Shown here: positions 5,677-18,505 of the stretch, piece by piece
How positions within the stretch are numbered: position 1 is the stretch's first letter
Layout of the letters: each line of letters starts with the position of its first letter
DNA from: Bacteroidaceae bacterium
GTDB taxonomy: Bacteria > Bacteroidota > Bacteroidia > Bacteroidales > Bacteroidaceae
NCBI GenBank assembly: GCA_017962495.1
Contig: JAGCVH010000084.1
Span: 1-41,888, forward strand
Length of the DNA: 41,888 nucleotides
Direction: 5' to 3'
Position numbers and translations under genes: made by a program
Notes under the pieces: model-generated
Database searches by the model: none
Told to the model about the DNA's origin: nothing
The model's input: the letters and a program-made list of their open reading frames with translations, nothing else

Positions 5677-5711
5677 ACCCCTAAGGTCTATGTCTTTTGT
5701 TTATACAATCC

Positions 5712-5777
5712 ACACCGAATGCTTGCTCAACCTTTGTCGAATGCTTGTACAACCTACATCGAACGCTTGTACAACTT
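5712..5777. repeat. Three tandem 22-bp units
   Basis: Units 5712-5733, 5734-5755 and 5756-5777 share the core CGAAtGCTTGtaCAACcT at a fixed 22-bp spacing, with about 14 of 22 positions the same in all three. The array lies in the convergent gap just before the 3' end of mazG. The ATGCTTGTAC core also occurs in the 22-bp array at 16422-16576. Confidence 0.75.
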
Positions 5778-5781
5778 ATGT

Positions 5782-6567
5782 CTATCGTGCTTCATCCTTA
5801 GCCTCGTTCCATAGGGCATCCATCTCTCCCAAAGTCATGTCCTTCAGGCTGCGCCCTTGTTCCTTTGCCTTAGCCTCAACATAGTTGAAGCGACTGATAA
5901 ACTTTTGATTAGTACGTTCGAGTGCATTATCAGGGTTGATGTGATATAGGCGCGCCATGTTTATCAAGCTAAACATGTAATCGCCAAACTCTTCTTCGCT
6001 ATGCTGTTTGTCGCCCTTTACGATCTCGGCACGCAGCTCATTCAACTCCTCCTGCACTTTTTCCCACACATCTTCCTTCTTTTCCCAGTCAAAGCCAACG
6101 TTACAGGCCTTCTCTTGAATGCGTTCTGCCTTTATTACCGATGGCAAGGCAGCAGGGACACCACTAAGCACAGTCTTATTCCCACCCTTTTCTTTCTGCT
6201 TGATAAGTTCCCAGGACTTCAGCACATCCCCAGCTGTTTCAGCCACCGCATCGCCATAGACATGAGGATGGCGGAAGATAAGTTTGTCACACAACTTATG
6301 GCAAACATCGGCTATATCGAACTGTCCCTTCTCATCACCAATCTTAGCATAAAAGCAGACATGCAATAACACATCGCCCAACTCCTTGCAAATGTTCTGA
6401 ACATCATCGTTAATCAAGGCCTCGCAAAGTTCGTAGGTTTCCTCTATTGTATTTGCGCGCAAGGTCTCGTTGGTCTGCTTTCTATCCCAAGGACATTTCT
6501 CTCTCAGTGTGTCAAGGACATCGAGTAATCGCCCGAATGCCTCCATTTTCTCTTCTCTTGTATGCAT
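5782..6567 (-). CDS. mazG: Nucleoside triphosphate pyrophosphohydrolase
   Basis: 261 residues, the usual length of the two-domain MazG. It hydrolyses NTPs to NMP and PPi, acting as a house-cleaning enzyme in the cytoplasm. Domain 1 (about 5-115) carries CPWDRKQTNETL, TIEETYELCEAL (the EExxE metal-binding helix) and KELGDVLLHVCFYAKI. Domain 2 (about 150-250) repeats the pattern with VQEELNELRAEI and EEEFGDYMFSLINMARL. The ATG at 6567 follows a TACTTTTG promoter element by about 28 bases. It is divergent from the phosphatase gene at 6676. Confidence 0.95.
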   Translation of the reverse strand: MHTREEKMEAFGRLLDVLDTLREKCPWDRKQTNETLRANTIEETYELCEALINDDVQNICKELGDVLLHVCFYAKIGDEKGQFDIADVCHKLCDKLIFRHPHVYGDAVAETAGDVLKSWELIKQKEKGGNKTVLSGVPAALPSVIKAERIQEKACNVGFDWEKKEDVWEKVQEELNELRAEIVKGDKQHSEEEFGDYMFSLINMARLYHINPDNALERTNQKFISRFNYVEAKAKEQGRSLKDMTLGEMDALWNEAKDEAR

Positions 6568-13099: not shown

Positions 13100-13402
13100 A
13101 TGAATACTATTATCCAACAAGAAGGGAATGGACTAAGGGTCATTTTCGAAGGTCGCTTAGACACGGCAGCAGCCACAAAGACAGAACAGGACATACAACC
13201 ATTGTTCGACTTCGAAGGAGGTGACATTACGCTCGATTGCGCTAAACTGGAGTACGTCTCGTCAAGTGGACTGCGTTTATTCCTTGCCTTGCTGAAAGTC
13301 ACCAAGGCAAAAAACATCCATCTGTATATTACAGGCATGACCGACGACCTCCGTCAAGTATTTGACATGACTGGGTTCTCAAGCATCTTCGAATTCAAAT
13401 AA
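13100..13402 (+). CDS. STAS-domain anti-sigma factor antagonist
   Basis: 100 residues, a single STAS domain like SpoIIAA and RsbV. The first strands (LRVIFEGRLDTAAATK) and the phospho-acceptor loop (LEYVSSSGLRLFLALLK) are clear; by alignment with SpoIIAA the phosphorylated serine should be Ser55. The residue before it is Ser where SpoIIAA has Asp. Such proteins bind an RsbW-type kinase when unphosphorylated and release its target. The matching kinase/phosphatase fusion is encoded at 6676-9105. It lies 115 bases before valS, with an 8-bp repeat array between them. Confidence 0.92.
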   Translation: MNTIIQQEGNGLRVIFEGRLDTAAATKTEQDIQPLFDFEGGDITLDCAKLEYVSSSGLRLFLALLKVTKAKNIHLYITGMTDDLRQVFDMTGFSSIFEFK

Positions 13403-13414
13403 ACCCATATAACA

Positions 13415-13510
13415 TTAACCGTTAACCCGTTAATCACTCACCCTTAACCCGTTAACCCGTTAACCTGTTAACCCGTTAACCATTTAACCTTTTAACCACT
13501 TAACCATTTA
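13415..13510. repeat. Tandem 8-bp TTAACCCG array
   Basis: From 13444 to 13507 there are eight exact 8-bp steps beginning TTAACC (TTAACCCG, TTAACCCG, TTAACCTG, TTAACCCG, then TTAACCAT, TTAACCTT, TTAACCAC, TTAACCAT). Three looser units lie at 13415-13437. Units degrade toward valS. CGTTAACC junctions contain the palindrome GTTAAC. The array fills nearly all of the space between the STAS gene and valS and ends about 8 bases before the valS ATG. Confidence 0.9.
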
Positions 13511-13517
13511 TTCCAAC

Positions 13518-16286
13518 ATGGAATTAGCAACAAAATACAGCCCTGCCGAAGTCGAAGGCAAGTGGTATCAGTATTGGTTAGACCATAAATTATTTAGTTC
13601 AAAACCCGACGAACGCGAACCCTACACCATAGTCATCCCGCCTCCAAACGTAACAGGAGTGCTGCACATGGGACATGTGCTGAATGAAACCATTCAGGAC
13701 ATACTGGTTCGTCACGCCCGCATGGAAGGAAAGAATGCCTGCTGGGTGCCCGGAACCGACCACGCCAGCATTGCCACCGAGGCAAAGGTGGTCAATCGTC
13801 TGGCAGAACAAGGCATAAAGAAGACCGACCTCACCCGTGAAGAGTTCTTGAAGCACGCCTGGGCTTGGACCGAAGAGCACGGAGGCATTATTCTAAAGCA
13901 GTTGCGCAAGCTCGGTTGCTCTTGCGACTGGGACCGCACCGCCTTCACCATGGACGAGAAGCGTAGCGAAAGCGTAATCAAAGTCTTCTGCGACCTCTAT
14001 CGCAAAGGCCTCATCTATCGTGGCGTACGCATGGTCAACTGGGACCCTAAGGCGTTGACTGCCCTCTCCGATGAAGAAGTTATCTACAAGGAAGAGCACA
14101 CGAAGCTCTACTACATGAAGTACTATGTTTCCAGTCCAGTAGGTTGCGATAATATCGCAACAGACGGCAACGTCATCCACCACGACGAACGCGGTTACTA
14201 TGCCGTAGTAGCAACCACACGCCCTGAGACCATCATGGGCGACGTAGCCATGTGCATCAACCCCAACGACCCCAAGAACCAGTGGTTGAAGGGAAAGAAG
14301 GTAATCGTGCCTCTGGTCAACCGCGTCATCCCCGTTATTGAGGACGAATATGTTGATATTGAGTTTGGTACGGGATGTCTGAAGGTGACGCCTGCCCACG
14401 ATGTCAACGACTATATGCTGGGTGAGAAGTATAATCTGGAAGCCATCGACGTCTTCAACCCCGACGGCACACTTAGCGAAGCGGCTAAGTTGTATGTAGG
14501 CATGGATCGCTTCGACTGCCGCAAGCAGATTTCAAAGGACATGATTGAGAGTGGCCTCATGGAGAAGGTGGAGGACTATGACAACAAGATTGGTTGTTCC
14601 GAGCGTACGGGTGTTCCCATCGAGCCACGTCTTTCGATGCAATGGTTCCTGAAGATGGAGCATCTGGCAGAGATAGCCCTTGCACCTGTTATGAACGACG
14701 ACATCAAGTTCTATCCTACCAAGTACAAGAACACATACCGCCACTGGCTTGAGAACATCAAGGACTGGTGCATCAGTCGCCAGCTCTGGTGGGGACATCG
14801 TATTCCTGCTTACTATATCGAAGCCCCCCTTGTATCCCCCGAGGGGGAAAAAATTCCACGTGGGGCTGTTATCGTAGCAGAAAGCGAAGAGGAAGCTTAT
14901 AAGATTGCAGTGGAACAATATCCCATTCTCAAGACTCTCCCCCCCACGGGGGGAGATGGAGAGGGGCTGGGCTTTACCTTACGCCAGGACGAGGACGCAC
15001 TCGACACTTGGTTCTCCTCATGGCTTTGGCCCATCAGCCTCTTCGACGGCATCAACAACCCAGGCAACGAAGAAATACGCTACTACTACCCCACTGCCGA
15101 CCTCGTAACTGGTCCGGACATCATCTTCTTCTGGGTGGCTCGCATGATTATGGCTGGCTACGAATACGAAGGCAAGATGCCGTTCCGCAACGTATATTTC
15201 ACCGGTATCGTACGCGATAAGCTGGGACGTAAGATGTCTAAGTCACTGGGCAACAGCCCCGACCCGCTTGACCTAATTGCACGTTTCGGTGCTGATGGCG
15301 TGCGCATGGGTATGATGCTGGCAGCTCCTGCCGGCAACGACATTCTCTTTGACGAGGCCCTTTGCGAACAAGGCCGTAACTTCTGCAACAAGATATGGAA
15401 CGCCTTCCGTCTTGTAAAGGGTTGGGAAGTCTCTGAGAACTCCGATAATTCCGAAAACTCTGAGATTAACTCCAGCGCCATCCGTTGGATGAATGCCAAG
15501 ATACGTGAGGTGGGAGCAGAGATAGAAGACTCATTCTCGAAATATCGCCTTAGCGAGGCCCTTATGGCTGCCTTCAAACTCTTTACCGATGAGTTCTCGG
15601 GTTGGTATCTGGAGATGATTAAGCCTGCTTATCAGCAACCCATCGACCGCAAGACGCTGGATGCTACCCTCGACATCTTCGAGACCTTGATGAAGATTAT
15701 CCATCCCTTCATGCCCTTCATCACCGAAGAACTTTGGCAAGCAATGGCCGAAAGGGAAGATGGCGACAGCATCATGGTTCATCCCCTGAAGATGGAAGCC
15801 CTGAGCGAAGACGACAAGCAGTTGCTTGCCCTTTACGAGAAGGCAAAGCAAGTCATCAGTGGTGTCCGTGCCGTTCGCAATTCGAAGAACATCGCACAGA
15901 AGGAAGCACTCGTGCTGGAGGCAGTAAGGCCTGACTCTAATTCTTCACTCTTCACTCTTAATTCTTCATTGATAAAGATGGCCAACCTCAGCGAGATTCG
16001 TTGCGTCGAGAAGAAAGGCGAAGGGTCTCAAAGCTTCTTGGTAGGTACTGAGGAATATGCCGTGCCTCTCGGTAATCTTATTGATACAGAGGCTGAAGTC
16101 CAGAAGGCTGAGGCAGAAATCAAGCGTCTGGAAGGCTTCATGATGGGCATACAGAAGAAACTCTCCAACGAACGCTTCGTGCAGAACGCCCCCGAGCAGG
16201 TTGTTGCCCTCGAGCGCAAGAAGCTGAGCGATGCCGAGAGCAAGATTGCTGCCCTGCAAGAAACGCTCAAGGCCCTTAGGTCTTAA
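13518..16286 (+). CDS. valS: Valyl-tRNA synthetase
   Basis: 922 residues. Class I synthetase charging tRNA-Val in the cytoplasm. The HIGH-type motif is HMGH at 50-53 and the KMSKS motif is KMSKS at 572-576. The editing (CP1) domain lies between them, with [13 protein letters not shown] and [15 protein letters not shown] marking its flanks. An anticodon-binding region follows, and a C-terminal coiled-coil arm (about 850-920, [19 protein letters not shown]...) is typical of ValRS. Four loop positions carry in-frame stretches resembling intergenic repeats (residues about 435-450, 473-485, 639-652 and 806-819). The last codons (ALRS, stop) lie inside a 22-bp-period array. The ATG at 13518 gives the standard N-terminus. 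Confidence 0.97.
14820..14867 (+). repeat. In-frame C/G-rich palindromic stretch in valS (1)
   Basis: Encodes [16 protein letters not shown] between the conserved GHRIPAYYI and [10 protein letters not shown]. The DNA holds TCCCCC-GA-GGGGGA (14835-14848), an inverted repeat. Related CCCCC...GAGGGG DNA occurs inside the gene at the right end of the window. Confidence 0.6.
14934..14972 (+). repeat. In-frame C/G-rich palindromic stretch in valS (2)
   Basis: Encodes [13 protein letters not shown] just before the conserved [14 protein letters not shown]. The DNA has 9-bp arms TCTCCCCCC (14936-14944) and GGGGGGAGA (14948-14956) around three bases. Confidence 0.65.
15432..15473 (+). repeat. In-frame 9-bp tandem repeat in valS
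   Basis: Encodes [41 protein letters not shown], then GAGATTAAC. It sits between the FRLVKGWEV helix and AIRWMNAKI. Confidence 0.65.
15933..15974 (+). repeat. In-frame low-complexity stretch in valS
   Basis: Encodes [14 protein letters not shown] from repeated TCTAATTCTTCA- and CACTCTTAATTCTTCA-like DNA, between [10 protein letters not shown] and [10 protein letters not shown]. Confidence 0.55.
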
Positions 16287-16378
16287 GAAAAAAGGCCTAG
16301 GCCTTATTGCGGAAAGCCTTAGGCCTTATTGCCAAAACCCTTAGGGGTTATTTCGGAAGACCTAAGTCTTATTACTCT
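16269..16378. repeat. 22-bp-period inverted-repeat array A, starting in the valS 3' end
   Basis: Five 22-bp units start at 16269, 16291, 16313, 16335 and 16357. Each has a ~14-base inverted repeat and then a spacer such as ATTGCGG, ATTGCCA or ATTTCGG. Arms: AAGGCC/GGTCTT, AAGGCC/GGCCTT, AAAGCC/GGCCTT, AACCC/GGGTT and AAGAC/GTCTT. Sequence changes on one arm are largely matched on the other. The first unit includes the valS stop codon. Confidence 0.85.
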
Positions 16379-16391
16379 CACAATACTATAT

Positions 16392-16425
16392 CATCGGCCT
16401 CTGCTTAATATAGCGGAGGCCGATG
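16392..16425. other. Strong hairpin between the two 22-bp arrays
   Basis: CATCGGCCTC (16392-16401) pairs perfectly with GAGGCCGATG (16416-16425) around a 14-base loop that has a further GCT/AGC pairing. No T-run follows on either strand, so it is not a standard terminator. It stands between arrays that are oriented oppositely. Confidence 0.75.
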
Positions 16426-16576
16426 CTTGTATATAGCATTGCCTCATGCTTGTACTATCTCCAACACATGCTTGGGCAATACTGAGTCCATACTTCGGCA
16501 ATACCTGCCGCAGGGTTGGGCAATACCCTGCACATGATTGCTACTATCATTGCCGATGGTTGTAAAACAAAATCCC
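16422..16576. repeat. 22-bp-period array B, opposite orientation to A
   Basis: Units start at 16422 (23 bp), 16445, 16467, 16489, 16511, 16533 and 16555. The core is CATGCTTGggCAATA. Read on the minus strand it gives TATTGCCcAA, matching the TATTGCCaAA spacer of array A. Some units are self-complementary (CAGGGT/ACCCTG at 16511-16530; ATGAT/ATCAT; ATGCT/AGCAT). The last unit runs into the terminator of the opposite-strand operon. Confidence 0.8.
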
Positions 16577-16600
16577 CCCCGCATCAGCAGATGCGAGGGG
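16562..16600 (-). terminator. Intrinsic terminator of the sus operon
   Basis: Minus strand: CCCCTCGCATC, loop TGCT, GATGCGGGGGG, then GATTTTGTTTT. One mismatch interrupts the stem. It lies 31 bases beyond the stop codon of the 16631-18505 gene. Confidence 0.75.
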
Positions 16601-16630
16601 ACGATTGTAATTACAAGTCTTACCAACTGA

Positions 16631-18505
16631 TTACTTCAGCGTATCAAATTTGTTGACTTCAGCATTAACAGGGGTCTTTAAACCAACCATCCTCTTAATT
16701 CGTTCACAGGAACGAGTGTGACTTCTTTCGCCACGCAGGCGACGAGCAAACTTAGCAGCCTTGATGCCACTCTCAGAGGCAGCGCCGGGCAGAACCAGTT
16801 TGAAGGCACCATTGGTGTTTGCATAATAACCACCATCATCATCGAAGGCGATAATGCCCTTAACGGGGAAGGTGATGACGCCATCTACCAAACTTCCGAA
16901 TTCGATACCATTTGCCTTAATGGTTTCAATGTCATAGCCAATAGCGAGATAACGAGCTGCATCTGATACAGCCGACATCATGCCATAACCCCAGTCTAAG
17001 CCCAGTTCCTGTTCTTCGAAGTAAACCGATGTAGGATCTGTAGCATCGATTTCCAGGTAATAGTCCATGGATGCATCCCAGTCACCTTCCTCATTATAAG
17101 GATAACCTTCGCCATAAGCATTCTTCAGACGATAGAGTCCCGGATTATCCTTATGTTCAAACACCTCTACCTCATAAGTTACAGGATCTGCCTCGAAGAG
17201 AGGACCTACAATATCATCGGTATAGAGTGCCATGCCGAGACTCTGCCAGGGACTTTCACCCTTAACAAACTCGAATACGCAAGAAGCACTTTCCTGAACC
17301 TCGCCTTCCTCATCGAAGGTAACAACGGTTACGCGATACTTGCCATCTTCCTCCAGAGGTAGATATACGCGAGTATTTTCAGTAATTTCCTCAGCCTCCA
17401 ACTCGCCAGCTACGATAGCGGCAGCAGCCTCTTCTTCGGAAACATCAGCGCTAGTCATAGCATACTTGGCACTAGCAACATCTGCGCCCAAAGTAAGGTC
17501 TACAACACCCTGATAAGTCTCAGCAGGAGTCTTCAAAATTCCAGCATACAATGCATTTGCGGAATAGTCGTATTCAACAAGAGAAGCACCAGGAAGAGCT
17601 ATAGCAAACTTTCCATTTACATTACAATAGTAAAGGCCATCATCCGAGTCTCTCCAACCTAACATGGCTCTTTGAGGCATAGTAATGACACCATTCTCCA
17701 ACTTACCGAACAGGTCGGGACGTGCAGCCTTCACGGCCTCAAGTGAGTTGCCATTTTGCATGAAGTAAGCTACATAGCTTATGAAATTGAAATTACCCTT
17801 ACCCCAGTCTGTACCGGTATTAGATTCCTCAACCCATACGAATTCGGGATCTTCAGCATGAACAACCATATAATAGTCCTTAGATGTATCCCAGTCACCA
17901 GGATCGTTATAGGGATAAGTAGCACCATAAGGATTTACTAGACGATAAAGTCCTTCAACCAAACTATTTTTCTGGATGGGCACCTCATATTCCAAATTGT
18001 CAACACCATACCACGTTGAGATCAAGTCTTCACGATAGATAGCATTGCCCATGTCTTCCCAGGGAGCAAGAGGACCAGCCTGGAAGGTATAACTAGTATC
18101 ACCGTAAGGTGTAGTATAGCTTTCCTCCGCAATAGAGATTGTGATGGGATGAAGCGCATCATACTCCTGTGTAGCAGGGTCGTATGTGATAGTGATATAT
18201 GCAACACTCTCACCATCAGCAAAGGTAACAGAAGAGGGAATGTTGAAAAGGCTTGCCTCATCCTGCTCAACGTTCAATTGCACAGTAAGTTCGCCATCTG
18301 TATTTACACGATTGATGGGAACGACGAAAGATGTACCATCGATAGCGATATCCTGAGTGCTGGGAAGTTCGTTGGAGAAGAACACCTGTGCGTTGGCTAA
18401 CTTCTCAGCAGGGGTATACTTGCCATCATCGTCGCTGCATGCCGTAAGGGCTACCAACATGGGCAGCACCATCAAAACGGATGCTAATTTATTAAATATC
18501 TTCAT
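16631..18505 (-). CDS. Surface lipoprotein with duplicated domain, third gene of the sus operon
   Basis: 624 residues. MKIFNKLASVLMVLPMLVALTAC is a lipoprotein signal (Cys 23) followed by SDDDGK, an acidic stretch of the kind that directs Bacteroidota lipoproteins to the cell surface. Residues ~35-145 look like a Calx-beta/Ig-like sandwich. Two copies of a ~175-residue domain follow at about 150-325 and 425-600: both have GLYRLVNPYG or GLYRLKNAYG, then YPYNDPGDWDTS or YPYNEEGDWDAS, then Asp-Trp-Gly motifs. A fibronectin-like linker lies between them. The position after susD suggests a SusE/F-like ligand-binding role, but the sequence family is not one I recognise. The basic C-terminal tail (about 590-624) differs in composition from the rest. 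Confidence 0.82.
   Translation of the reverse strand: MKIFNKLASVLMVLPMLVALTACSDDDGKYTPAEKLANAQVFFSNELPSTQDIAIDGTSFVVPINRVNTDGELTVQLNVEQDEASLFNIPSSVTFADGESVAYITITYDPATQEYDALHPITISIAEESYTTPYGDTSYTFQAGPLAPWEDMGNAIYREDLISTWYGVDNLEYEVPIQKNSLVEGLYRLVNPYGATYPYNDPGDWDTSKDYYMVVHAEDPEFVWVEESNTGTDWGKGNFNFISYVAYFMQNGNSLEAVKAARPDLFGKLENGVITMPQRAMLGWRDSDDGLYYCNVNGKFAIALPGASLVEYDYSANALYAGILKTPAETYQGVVDLTLGADVASAKYAMTSADVSEEEAAAAIVAGELEAEEITENTRVYLPLEEDGKYRVTVVTFDEEGEVQESASCVFEFVKGESPWQSLGMALYTDDIVGPLFEADPVTYEVEVFEHKDNPGLYRLKNAYGEGYPYNEEGDWDASMDYYLEIDATDPTSVYFEEQELGLDWGYGMMSAVSDAARYLAIGYDIETIKANGIEFGSLVDGVITFPVKGIIAFDDDGGYYANTNGAFKLVLPGAASESGIKAAKFARRLRGERSHTRSCERIKRMVGLKTPVNAEVNKFDTLK

Follow-up and report, generated by a model that had tools for sequence, protein, structure and literature searches.

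A dispersed family of palindromic arrays with a 22-bp step in a Bacteroidaceae genome and its relatives

The window analyzed here is a 41,888-nucleotide stretch from a Bacteroidaceae bacterium (assembly GCA_017962495.1, contig JAGCVH010000084.1, positions 1 to 41,888 of the forward strand). It carries an array of five short palindromic units at the 3′ end of valS, the gene for valyl-tRNA synthetase. This array is one copy of a short repeat family dispersed over the whole genome, and not a valS feature. Among the arrays tested, what recurs across species is not the letters but the layout, with one dyad of about 14-17 bp per 22 ± 1 bp. The sequence types are largely, not wholly, species-particular. 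A shared step with differing letters may point to a rule of spacing and not to conservation of sequence.

Genomes are given G numbers (G000, the source genome of the window; G002, a sister species; the others, relatives) and fetched loci L numbers. The scores and counts rest on small samples of incomplete genomes, the assemblies of G000 and G002 being 85% and 76% complete.

The palindromic array at the valS stop codon

The five units start at positions 16269, 16291, 16313, 16335 and 16357, in exact 22-bp steps, and Tandem Repeats Finder reports a period of 22 over 16291-16358 (3.1 copies). Units 2-5 are 14-nt palindromes, one of them with a mismatch, each with an 8-nt spacer. The features are as follows (ORF, open reading frame; aa, amino acids).

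13518..16286, + strand: valS (valyl-tRNA synthetase), ORF of 922 aa with Pfam domains tRNA-synt_1, Anticodon_1 and Val_tRNA-synt_C
16269..16290, + strand: unit 1, imperfect palindrome, partly coding, spanning the last valS codons and the stop
16291..16312, + strand: unit 2, palindrome AAGGCCTAGGCCTT plus spacer
16313..16334, + strand: unit 3, AAGCCTTAGGCCTT, with one arm position mismatched
16335..16356, + strand: unit 4, AACCCTTAGGGGTT
16357..16378, + strand: unit 5, AAGACCTAAGTCTT, the partner of unit 1 in the predicted fold of the + strand

In the array consensus (16291-16366, without unit 1), the fraction of complementary arm pairs is 0.86, compared with 0.59 in column shuffles (P=0.003). 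The sequence and coordinates thus bear out what an earlier reading, made from these letters only (the sequence-only reading), had described: five true palindromic units in an exact 22-bp step, the first containing the last valS codons and the stop. The arms of units 1 and 3 are mismatched. Unit 1 is the weakest unit because its valS codons align with ordinary ValS C-termini; the last codons, K-A-L-R-S-stop, match these except for the final Ser (alignment with 16 of 30 rows displayed).

A family dispersed over the source genome

A DNA search of the source genome with the valS array returned 38 match rows, a figure that counts the window and some overlapping rows. All 20 stretches fetched around the best other places contain 22-bp-period sequence. 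The half-site types, named by eye, are AAGNCCT, TCGAACCT, TTTGCACCT and AAGGTTGT, and they are sometimes mixed in one array, even in one unit.

We also sampled 442 kb of G000 in an unbiased way, combining the window with 20 stretches, each of 20 kb, chosen without regard to matches. Period 22 was the commonest degenerate tandem period in this sample, with 23 segments. Other periods from 10 to 43 had 0-10 segments each, period 21 coming next below 44 with 10, and period 44, a multiple of 22, had 16. Across all tested periods (10 to 71), one first-order Markov shuffle of the sample gave 0 segments. The excess over shuffled DNA on which the sequence-only reading had staked its case is thus present, at 23 period-22 segments against 0. 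Outside ORFs the sample holds 25 arrays of period 21-23 (3 at sequence edges), which projects to ~167 per genome.

Two further observations concern the composition and neighbors of G000 arrays. CTAG occurs 22 times in the 6787 bp of 53 arrays and 146 times in the 442-kb sample, roughly a tenfold difference in density. At L023 1343-1386 and L026 1172-1215, a common motif, approximately CTCCGTTTCYCTACGCAAGCGTAGCTTCGCGTCC (by eye), adjoins the arrays of both loci and is perhaps a second repeat family.

The same step with other letters in relatives

For comparison we used stretches from 20 further genomes of the genus together with 80 named loci surrounding valS, almost all of them from Bacteroidales. 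The controls (0.99 Mb) comprised 258 kb from other Bacteroidales families, 337 kb from other orders, 346 kb from other classes and, from E. coli, one 50-kb stretch. In each genome the sequence was drawn from the opening part of the first one or two contigs. The 258-kb set holds one same-family genome (G072), which was excluded when four alternative settings were run. An array was scored as palindromic by a consensus dyad test against a column-shuffle null, with a limit of P<=0.02. Short-period arrays were excluded from the period counts (6/42, 15/68 and 14/76).

By this test, 38/102 arrays of period 21-23 were palindromic (G000 9/27, genus 11/33, named loci 18/42), compared with 0/49 arrays of other periods (Fisher 3e-8). 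Three of the four alternative settings likewise gave 0 palindromic arrays of other periods; with 8-bp arms, 2/16 passed in the named set. Intergenic or edge arrays in G000, the genus and the named loci had a period of 21-23 in 88/103 cases and another period in 15, the corresponding control counts being 7 and 9. Arrays of other periods lie mostly within ORFs. No palindromic array was found in the controls at P<=0.02; two period-22 control arrays came close to the limit (P=0.083 and 0.053), so the range is soft.

Period 22 was also the commonest in the named loci (26 segments; period 21, 22 segments) and in the G012/G024 set (11). It did not lead in every subset: the remaining genus genomes had 7 segments, compared with 10 for period 21, and G017 had just 2. 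The palindromes themselves look unrelated in most genome comparisons, for example GTCCGAAGGCTTCGGAC in L096, TCCCACTATAGTGGGA in L101 and AAGTACTATAGTACTT in L098. For the window array, G054, which belongs to another order, gave a single weak match (E 4e-4). A search of viral contigs with one exact two-unit pattern gave 0 matches.

Two other arrays may be recorded here. Behind the valS of G136, directly after the stop, L294 carries an array with a 30-bp step and CTGGCG..CGCCAG-like arms (palindrome P=0.10). An uncultured Parabacteroides carries a 23-bp array of ten copies (L108 10141-10378).

Core spacing

Neighboring CCTNAGG cores lying 12-34 bp apart in G000 are spaced at 22 bp in 64/68 pairs and at 21 bp in 4/68. 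A further 10 real neighbors lie at 43-129 bp, and shuffled G000 sequence contained no CCTNAGG pair. Where flank identity is under 45% (n=28, even-centered cores included), 20 pairs are at 22, 6 at 21.5 and 2 at 21. In G002, 79/79 CCTAGG pairs are at 22, of which only 4 have flanks that diverged. These data suggest selection on spacing, short of proof because adjacent units have their cores in common, and recombination may swap halves between them.

A step of 22 bp corresponds to two helical turns at 11 bp per turn, while at 10.5 the units would drift by ~34 degrees each. The proposal that all units lie on one face of the DNA is right only as an approximation.

Genomic position and turnover

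Gene contexts were assigned by simple ORF rules without annotation; counts shifted with the rule, and those of the final rule are given. Arrays were enriched in convergent gaps in the unbiased set (9/22 arrays vs 21/113 gaps, p=0.046), in other genomes (16/34 vs 108/476, p=0.003) and in the hit loci, which were selected for similarity to the window array (17/25, p=3e-6). Divergent gaps were significantly depleted in the hit loci only (0/25 vs 25/113, p=0.008). Most G000 arrays lie close to gene ends. The median distance from an array to the 3′ end of the adjoining gene, where there is one, is 42 bp in G000 and 63 bp elsewhere.

Close relatives differ in which arrays they have and in how many copies. 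Among the larger number of arrays that align beside G017 sequence, seven G000 loci were compared; of these, 5/7 have no array in G017 and 2/7 have it with other copies. At L021 an array separates two reading frames, between which G017 has just two bases (by eye). When array-free G017 sites were checked for terminal inverted repeats and target-site duplications, their flanks were too diverged for exact joints.

The valS locus itself shows the same variation. valS is present in 57/61 genus genomes searched, and we examined the best 30 loci. An array of 21-23 bp lies within -60 to +420 bp of the valS stop in 5/30 of these (G000, G001, G126, G118 and G012), with sequences that differ by eye; one further array was seen by eye at the valS of G008. 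No array is present at the valS of G017 or G021, which are the two best valS matches. Two relatives have similar arrays that come after a terminator-like hairpin (by eye).

Surroundings of the valS array

The five units are present as the sequence-only reading described them, but the feature is larger: the window holds a second and a third array.

16392..16425, + strand: strong 14-bp hairpin separating the first two arrays, terminator-like by consensus scan
about 16439..16541, + strand: second 22-bp-step array, of a different sequence type (CATGCTTGNNCAATAC)
16574..16601, - strand: terminator-like hairpin on the strand of the convergent neighbor (consensus scan)
16631..18505, - strand: convergent neighbor, ORF of 624 aa with no Pfam match at E 0.001
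about 5696..5803, + strand: third 22-bp-step array, between convergent ORFs; the orthologous G017 gap is without it

Inside the valS array, the consensus scan found no terminator-like site (GC-rich hairpin plus T run) on the valS strand and two weak ones on the other strand. Rfam covariance models gave 0 matches in the window at the gathering score, and a tRNA search was negative. Two repeats of other kinds lie nearby. A 7-bp-period repeat of TCTTCAC type runs in the valS coding frame (15942-15968), in a region whose length varies among relatives. Upstream of valS, between divergent genes, TTAACC repeats with periods of 8, 16 and 24 bp occupy 13388-13530 and are not of the palindromic 22-bp kind (by eye).

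Pairing, compensation and hairpins

Within G000 arrays, arms pair with their own partners in modest excess over swapped arms (z 2.7 for 26 arrays, z 3.9 for 22 arrays). Elsewhere there is no excess (z -0.7 for 57 arrays, z 0.2 for 34 palindromic arrays). The compensating arm changes that the sequence-only reading saw between units thus hold modestly in G000; units 1 and 3 of the valS array are mismatched, and the values outside G000 leave such changes unsupported as a general rule. Selection on pairing within units, also proposed, is weakly suggested at best: some units combine different half-sites (by eye), and pairing within single units of the G002 element described below does not exceed chance. 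Covariation around CCTNAGG cores is seen at flank positions 1 (z 5.0) and 3 (z 4.5) of 6 in the 125 units used, after 100 isolated cores of 225 were set aside. Linker-centered and core-centered pairing are alike in G000, at 3.20 and 3.25 of 7 pairs, with a control of 2.87 (per-array p 0.065 and 0.001 vs control).

A four-core element occurs in G002 at 36 distinct places (manual count from 73 rows) and had no match in the 13 other (sister) genomes searched. The 26 loci yielded 25 elements, of which all but the mixed L259, L273 and L276 were aligned (22). Mean pairwise identity is 0.85 (n=22). Many copies end in AAGCCCC/GGGGCTT or ATCCCC/GGGGAT, and some have mixed or other ends. One copy folds into a single hairpin (-61.5 kcal/mol, z -11.4), and linker 1 covaries with linker 3: in 22 copies 0/500 shuffles reach the score and a second test gives z 3.25 (p 0.0014), and in 19 copies 0/2000 permutations reach it. 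Within single linkers, pairing does not exceed chance and in linker 2 falls below it (z -3.1), the outer arms and linker 2 show no covariation with their partners, and the whole hairpin has no overall excess of paired cells (435/500 shuffles as high). Columns 27/56 of the hairpin are mismatched in 14 copies. Columns 34/49 are mismatched in 22/22 copies, C-C or G-G by eye, as if perfect pairing were avoided.

Mirror symmetry of whole arrays was considered as a general rule and rejected, with Stouffer z of -2.7 and -1.5 in G000 and 1.9 and 0.3 in other genomes. On co-directional transcripts, mismatches are about equally G-U (68) and A-C (60) and thus give no sign of RNA wobble; divergent gaps have 22 G-U and 5 A-C, orientation being arbitrary there.

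A DNA-level explanation and its rivals

Of the explanations considered, we tentatively regard a DNA-level role as the most likely, albeit at less than even confidence. Each dyad would putatively be bound by a protein with two-fold symmetry, whose neighboring dimers would be packed in a fixed arrangement by the two-turn step. Core and spacing would thereby be kept while the arms drift. Spread to new places and tandem growth may proceed as in repetitive extragenic palindromes (REP) and bacterial interspersed mosaic elements (BIME), by some enzyme or by recombination, and the valS array is probably carried along in the 3′ flank as a tolerated passenger. In favor of this explanation are the many G000 copies that keep one step across mixed sequence types, the period spectrum, the near-constant spacing of G000 and G002 cores, the palindromic arrays of period 21-23 compared with none of other periods, the enrichment in convergent gaps, the turnover seen against G017 and the lack of any sign of RNA wobble.

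Several observations pull the other way. With homologous pairs removed, there is no clear 22-bp dyad phase (dyads per lag on the 22 grid vs off it, 2.1 vs 1.6 in G000 and 2.8 vs 2.6 in other genomes), so the spacing could be inherited through recombination between units; a lag-11 peak in the other genomes (19 pairs vs 4 in shuffles) is the expected result of two dyad axes per 22-bp unit. The nine CCTNAGG pairs of G017 are spaced at 22 in 6 cases, at 15 in 1 and at 30 in 2. Avoidance of divergent gaps is not significant in the unbiased set (2/22, p=0.24) or in other genomes (9/34 vs 111/476, p=0.68). Some sequence types cross species: the window array also matches G017 (4 rows) and G019 (1), making 3/41 genomes with its own, and one G017 array matches G000, G001 and G004. 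A symmetric protein would have to follow the changing sites in each species. Many arrays also fold as RNA better than shuffles (median z -3.7 in other genomes, -1.4 in G000), and hairpin formation has covariation support, in G002 only, which fits the first of the rivals.

That rival is a hairpin element, a possible but less probable account. Here the units would pair along the array, which would act as an imperfect hairpin either in RNA, where it would stabilize 3′ ends or terminate transcription in both directions, or in DNA that is single-stranded while being copied. The single-hairpin fold and linker 1/3 covariation of G002, the RNA fold scores and the preference for convergent gaps speak for it. 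Against it stand the lack of paired-cell excess over the whole G002 hairpin, the outer arms and linker 2 without covariation, a mirror symmetry that is not general and the lack of G-U preference on co-directional transcripts. Nor does it explain a step of 22, and the valS array has no terminator-like site on the valS strand, while in the two relatives mentioned above the arrays lie beyond a terminator-like hairpin.

It is rather unlikely that the arrays are a neutral minisatellite, in which recombination and slippage would spread functionless palindromic repeats and the step would reflect descent from a common seed element or a mutational bias. This would account for the variation in presence and copy number between relatives, the similarity of the G002 copies, the unclear homology-free phasing and the types common to several species. 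It seems to fit less well with the few spacing changes (4/68) despite diverged flanks, or with a step common to palindromic arrays of mostly unrelated sequence.

REP/BIME elements mobilized by a RAYT (Y1) transposase are very improbable. The arrays do look the same, as tandem, dispersed short palindromes between genes that are largely species-specific, but the incomplete G000 and G002 assemblies gave no match to PF01797 (Y1/RAYT) at E 0.001, and GTAG and CGTC tags are not enriched in 53 G000 arrays (6 GTAG and 16 CGTC in 6787 bp). Of 19 genus genomes searched, 5 have a PF01797 match, strong in G013 only. A regulatory 3′ structure specific to valS is the least probable of all: the array spans the stop codon, but the same family occurs at many other places, the 5/30 valS loci with arrays differ in sequence, and the idea that the array shapes the valS 3′ end fails at G017 and G021, which have none there, and at other loci with unrelated arrays or none.

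Beyond the DNA-level explanation favored above, a wider proposal is one to which we assign a low probability. Bacteroidaceae, Prevotellaceae and close kin may harbor an unrecognized system that builds or reads palindromic DNA by a 22-bp ruler, the letters changing and the geometry being kept. The ruler could be a protein lattice in which symmetric dimers sit two helical turns from each other, or else an enzyme copying palindromic units with this step. If such a rule holds, intergenic repeats of bacteria can keep their geometry while their sequence varies freely, so that similarity searches miss them, and the function of REP-like arrays becomes directly testable. In the open-licence literature searched, titles and abstract openings held no report of 22-bp palindromic arrays across Bacteroidaceae. 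The valS locus also carries a caution: tandem hairpins downstream of a gene are not necessarily its terminator.

Comparison with known systems

The nearest described element is BrickBuilt of Porphyromonas gingivalis, described as an intergenic 23-nt minisatellite and miniature inverted-repeat transposable element with predicted long stem-loops, found at 19 places in one genome (PMC4596501). The same description lists tRNA synthetase genes among its neighbors, a repeat number that varies between strains, and a leader and tail with IS5-like terminal repeats (PMC4596501). Both are dispersed intergenic tandem repeats of Bacteroidales with a similar unit, about 23 nt there and a 22-bp step at many places here. 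They differ in that the step here is mostly 22 and several sequence types are mixed per array. A search for the BrickBuilt terminal repeats, with the leader and tail sequences themselves left aside, gave one match of at least 11/12 within 300 bp of the 53 G000 arrays, and matches in the window were at chance (9 vs a mean of 6.6).

REP and BIME are described as short palindromes in high copy between genes, forming tandem composites and being species-specific, with inter-REP segments that vary in length in the described BIMEs (PMC2817692). The arrays here resemble REP, BIME and REPIN as extragenic palindromes dispersed in high copy and in tandem. They differ from REP/BIME in their fixed 22-bp packing, with no RAYT detected and no GTAG enrichment. 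GTAG- and CGTC-tagged palindromic repeats are reported as self-complementary, dispersed and 20-40 bp long, the CGTC type also in Bacteroidetes (PMC3733652). The arrays here differ in that neither tag is enriched.

Regularity invites two other comparisons. Plasmid iterons are direct repeats about two helical turns long, in fixed phase, that serve as replication-origin sites beside rep genes. The two-turn step and fixed phase are alike, but the arrays here are scattered over the genome. CRISPR arrays are regular too, with partly palindromic repeats. Here there is no constant repeat with unique spacers, and the whole 22-bp unit drifts. The arrays, for which no RAYT transposase was detected, are best filed as dispersed palindromic repeats of REP/BIME- and BrickBuilt-like kind.

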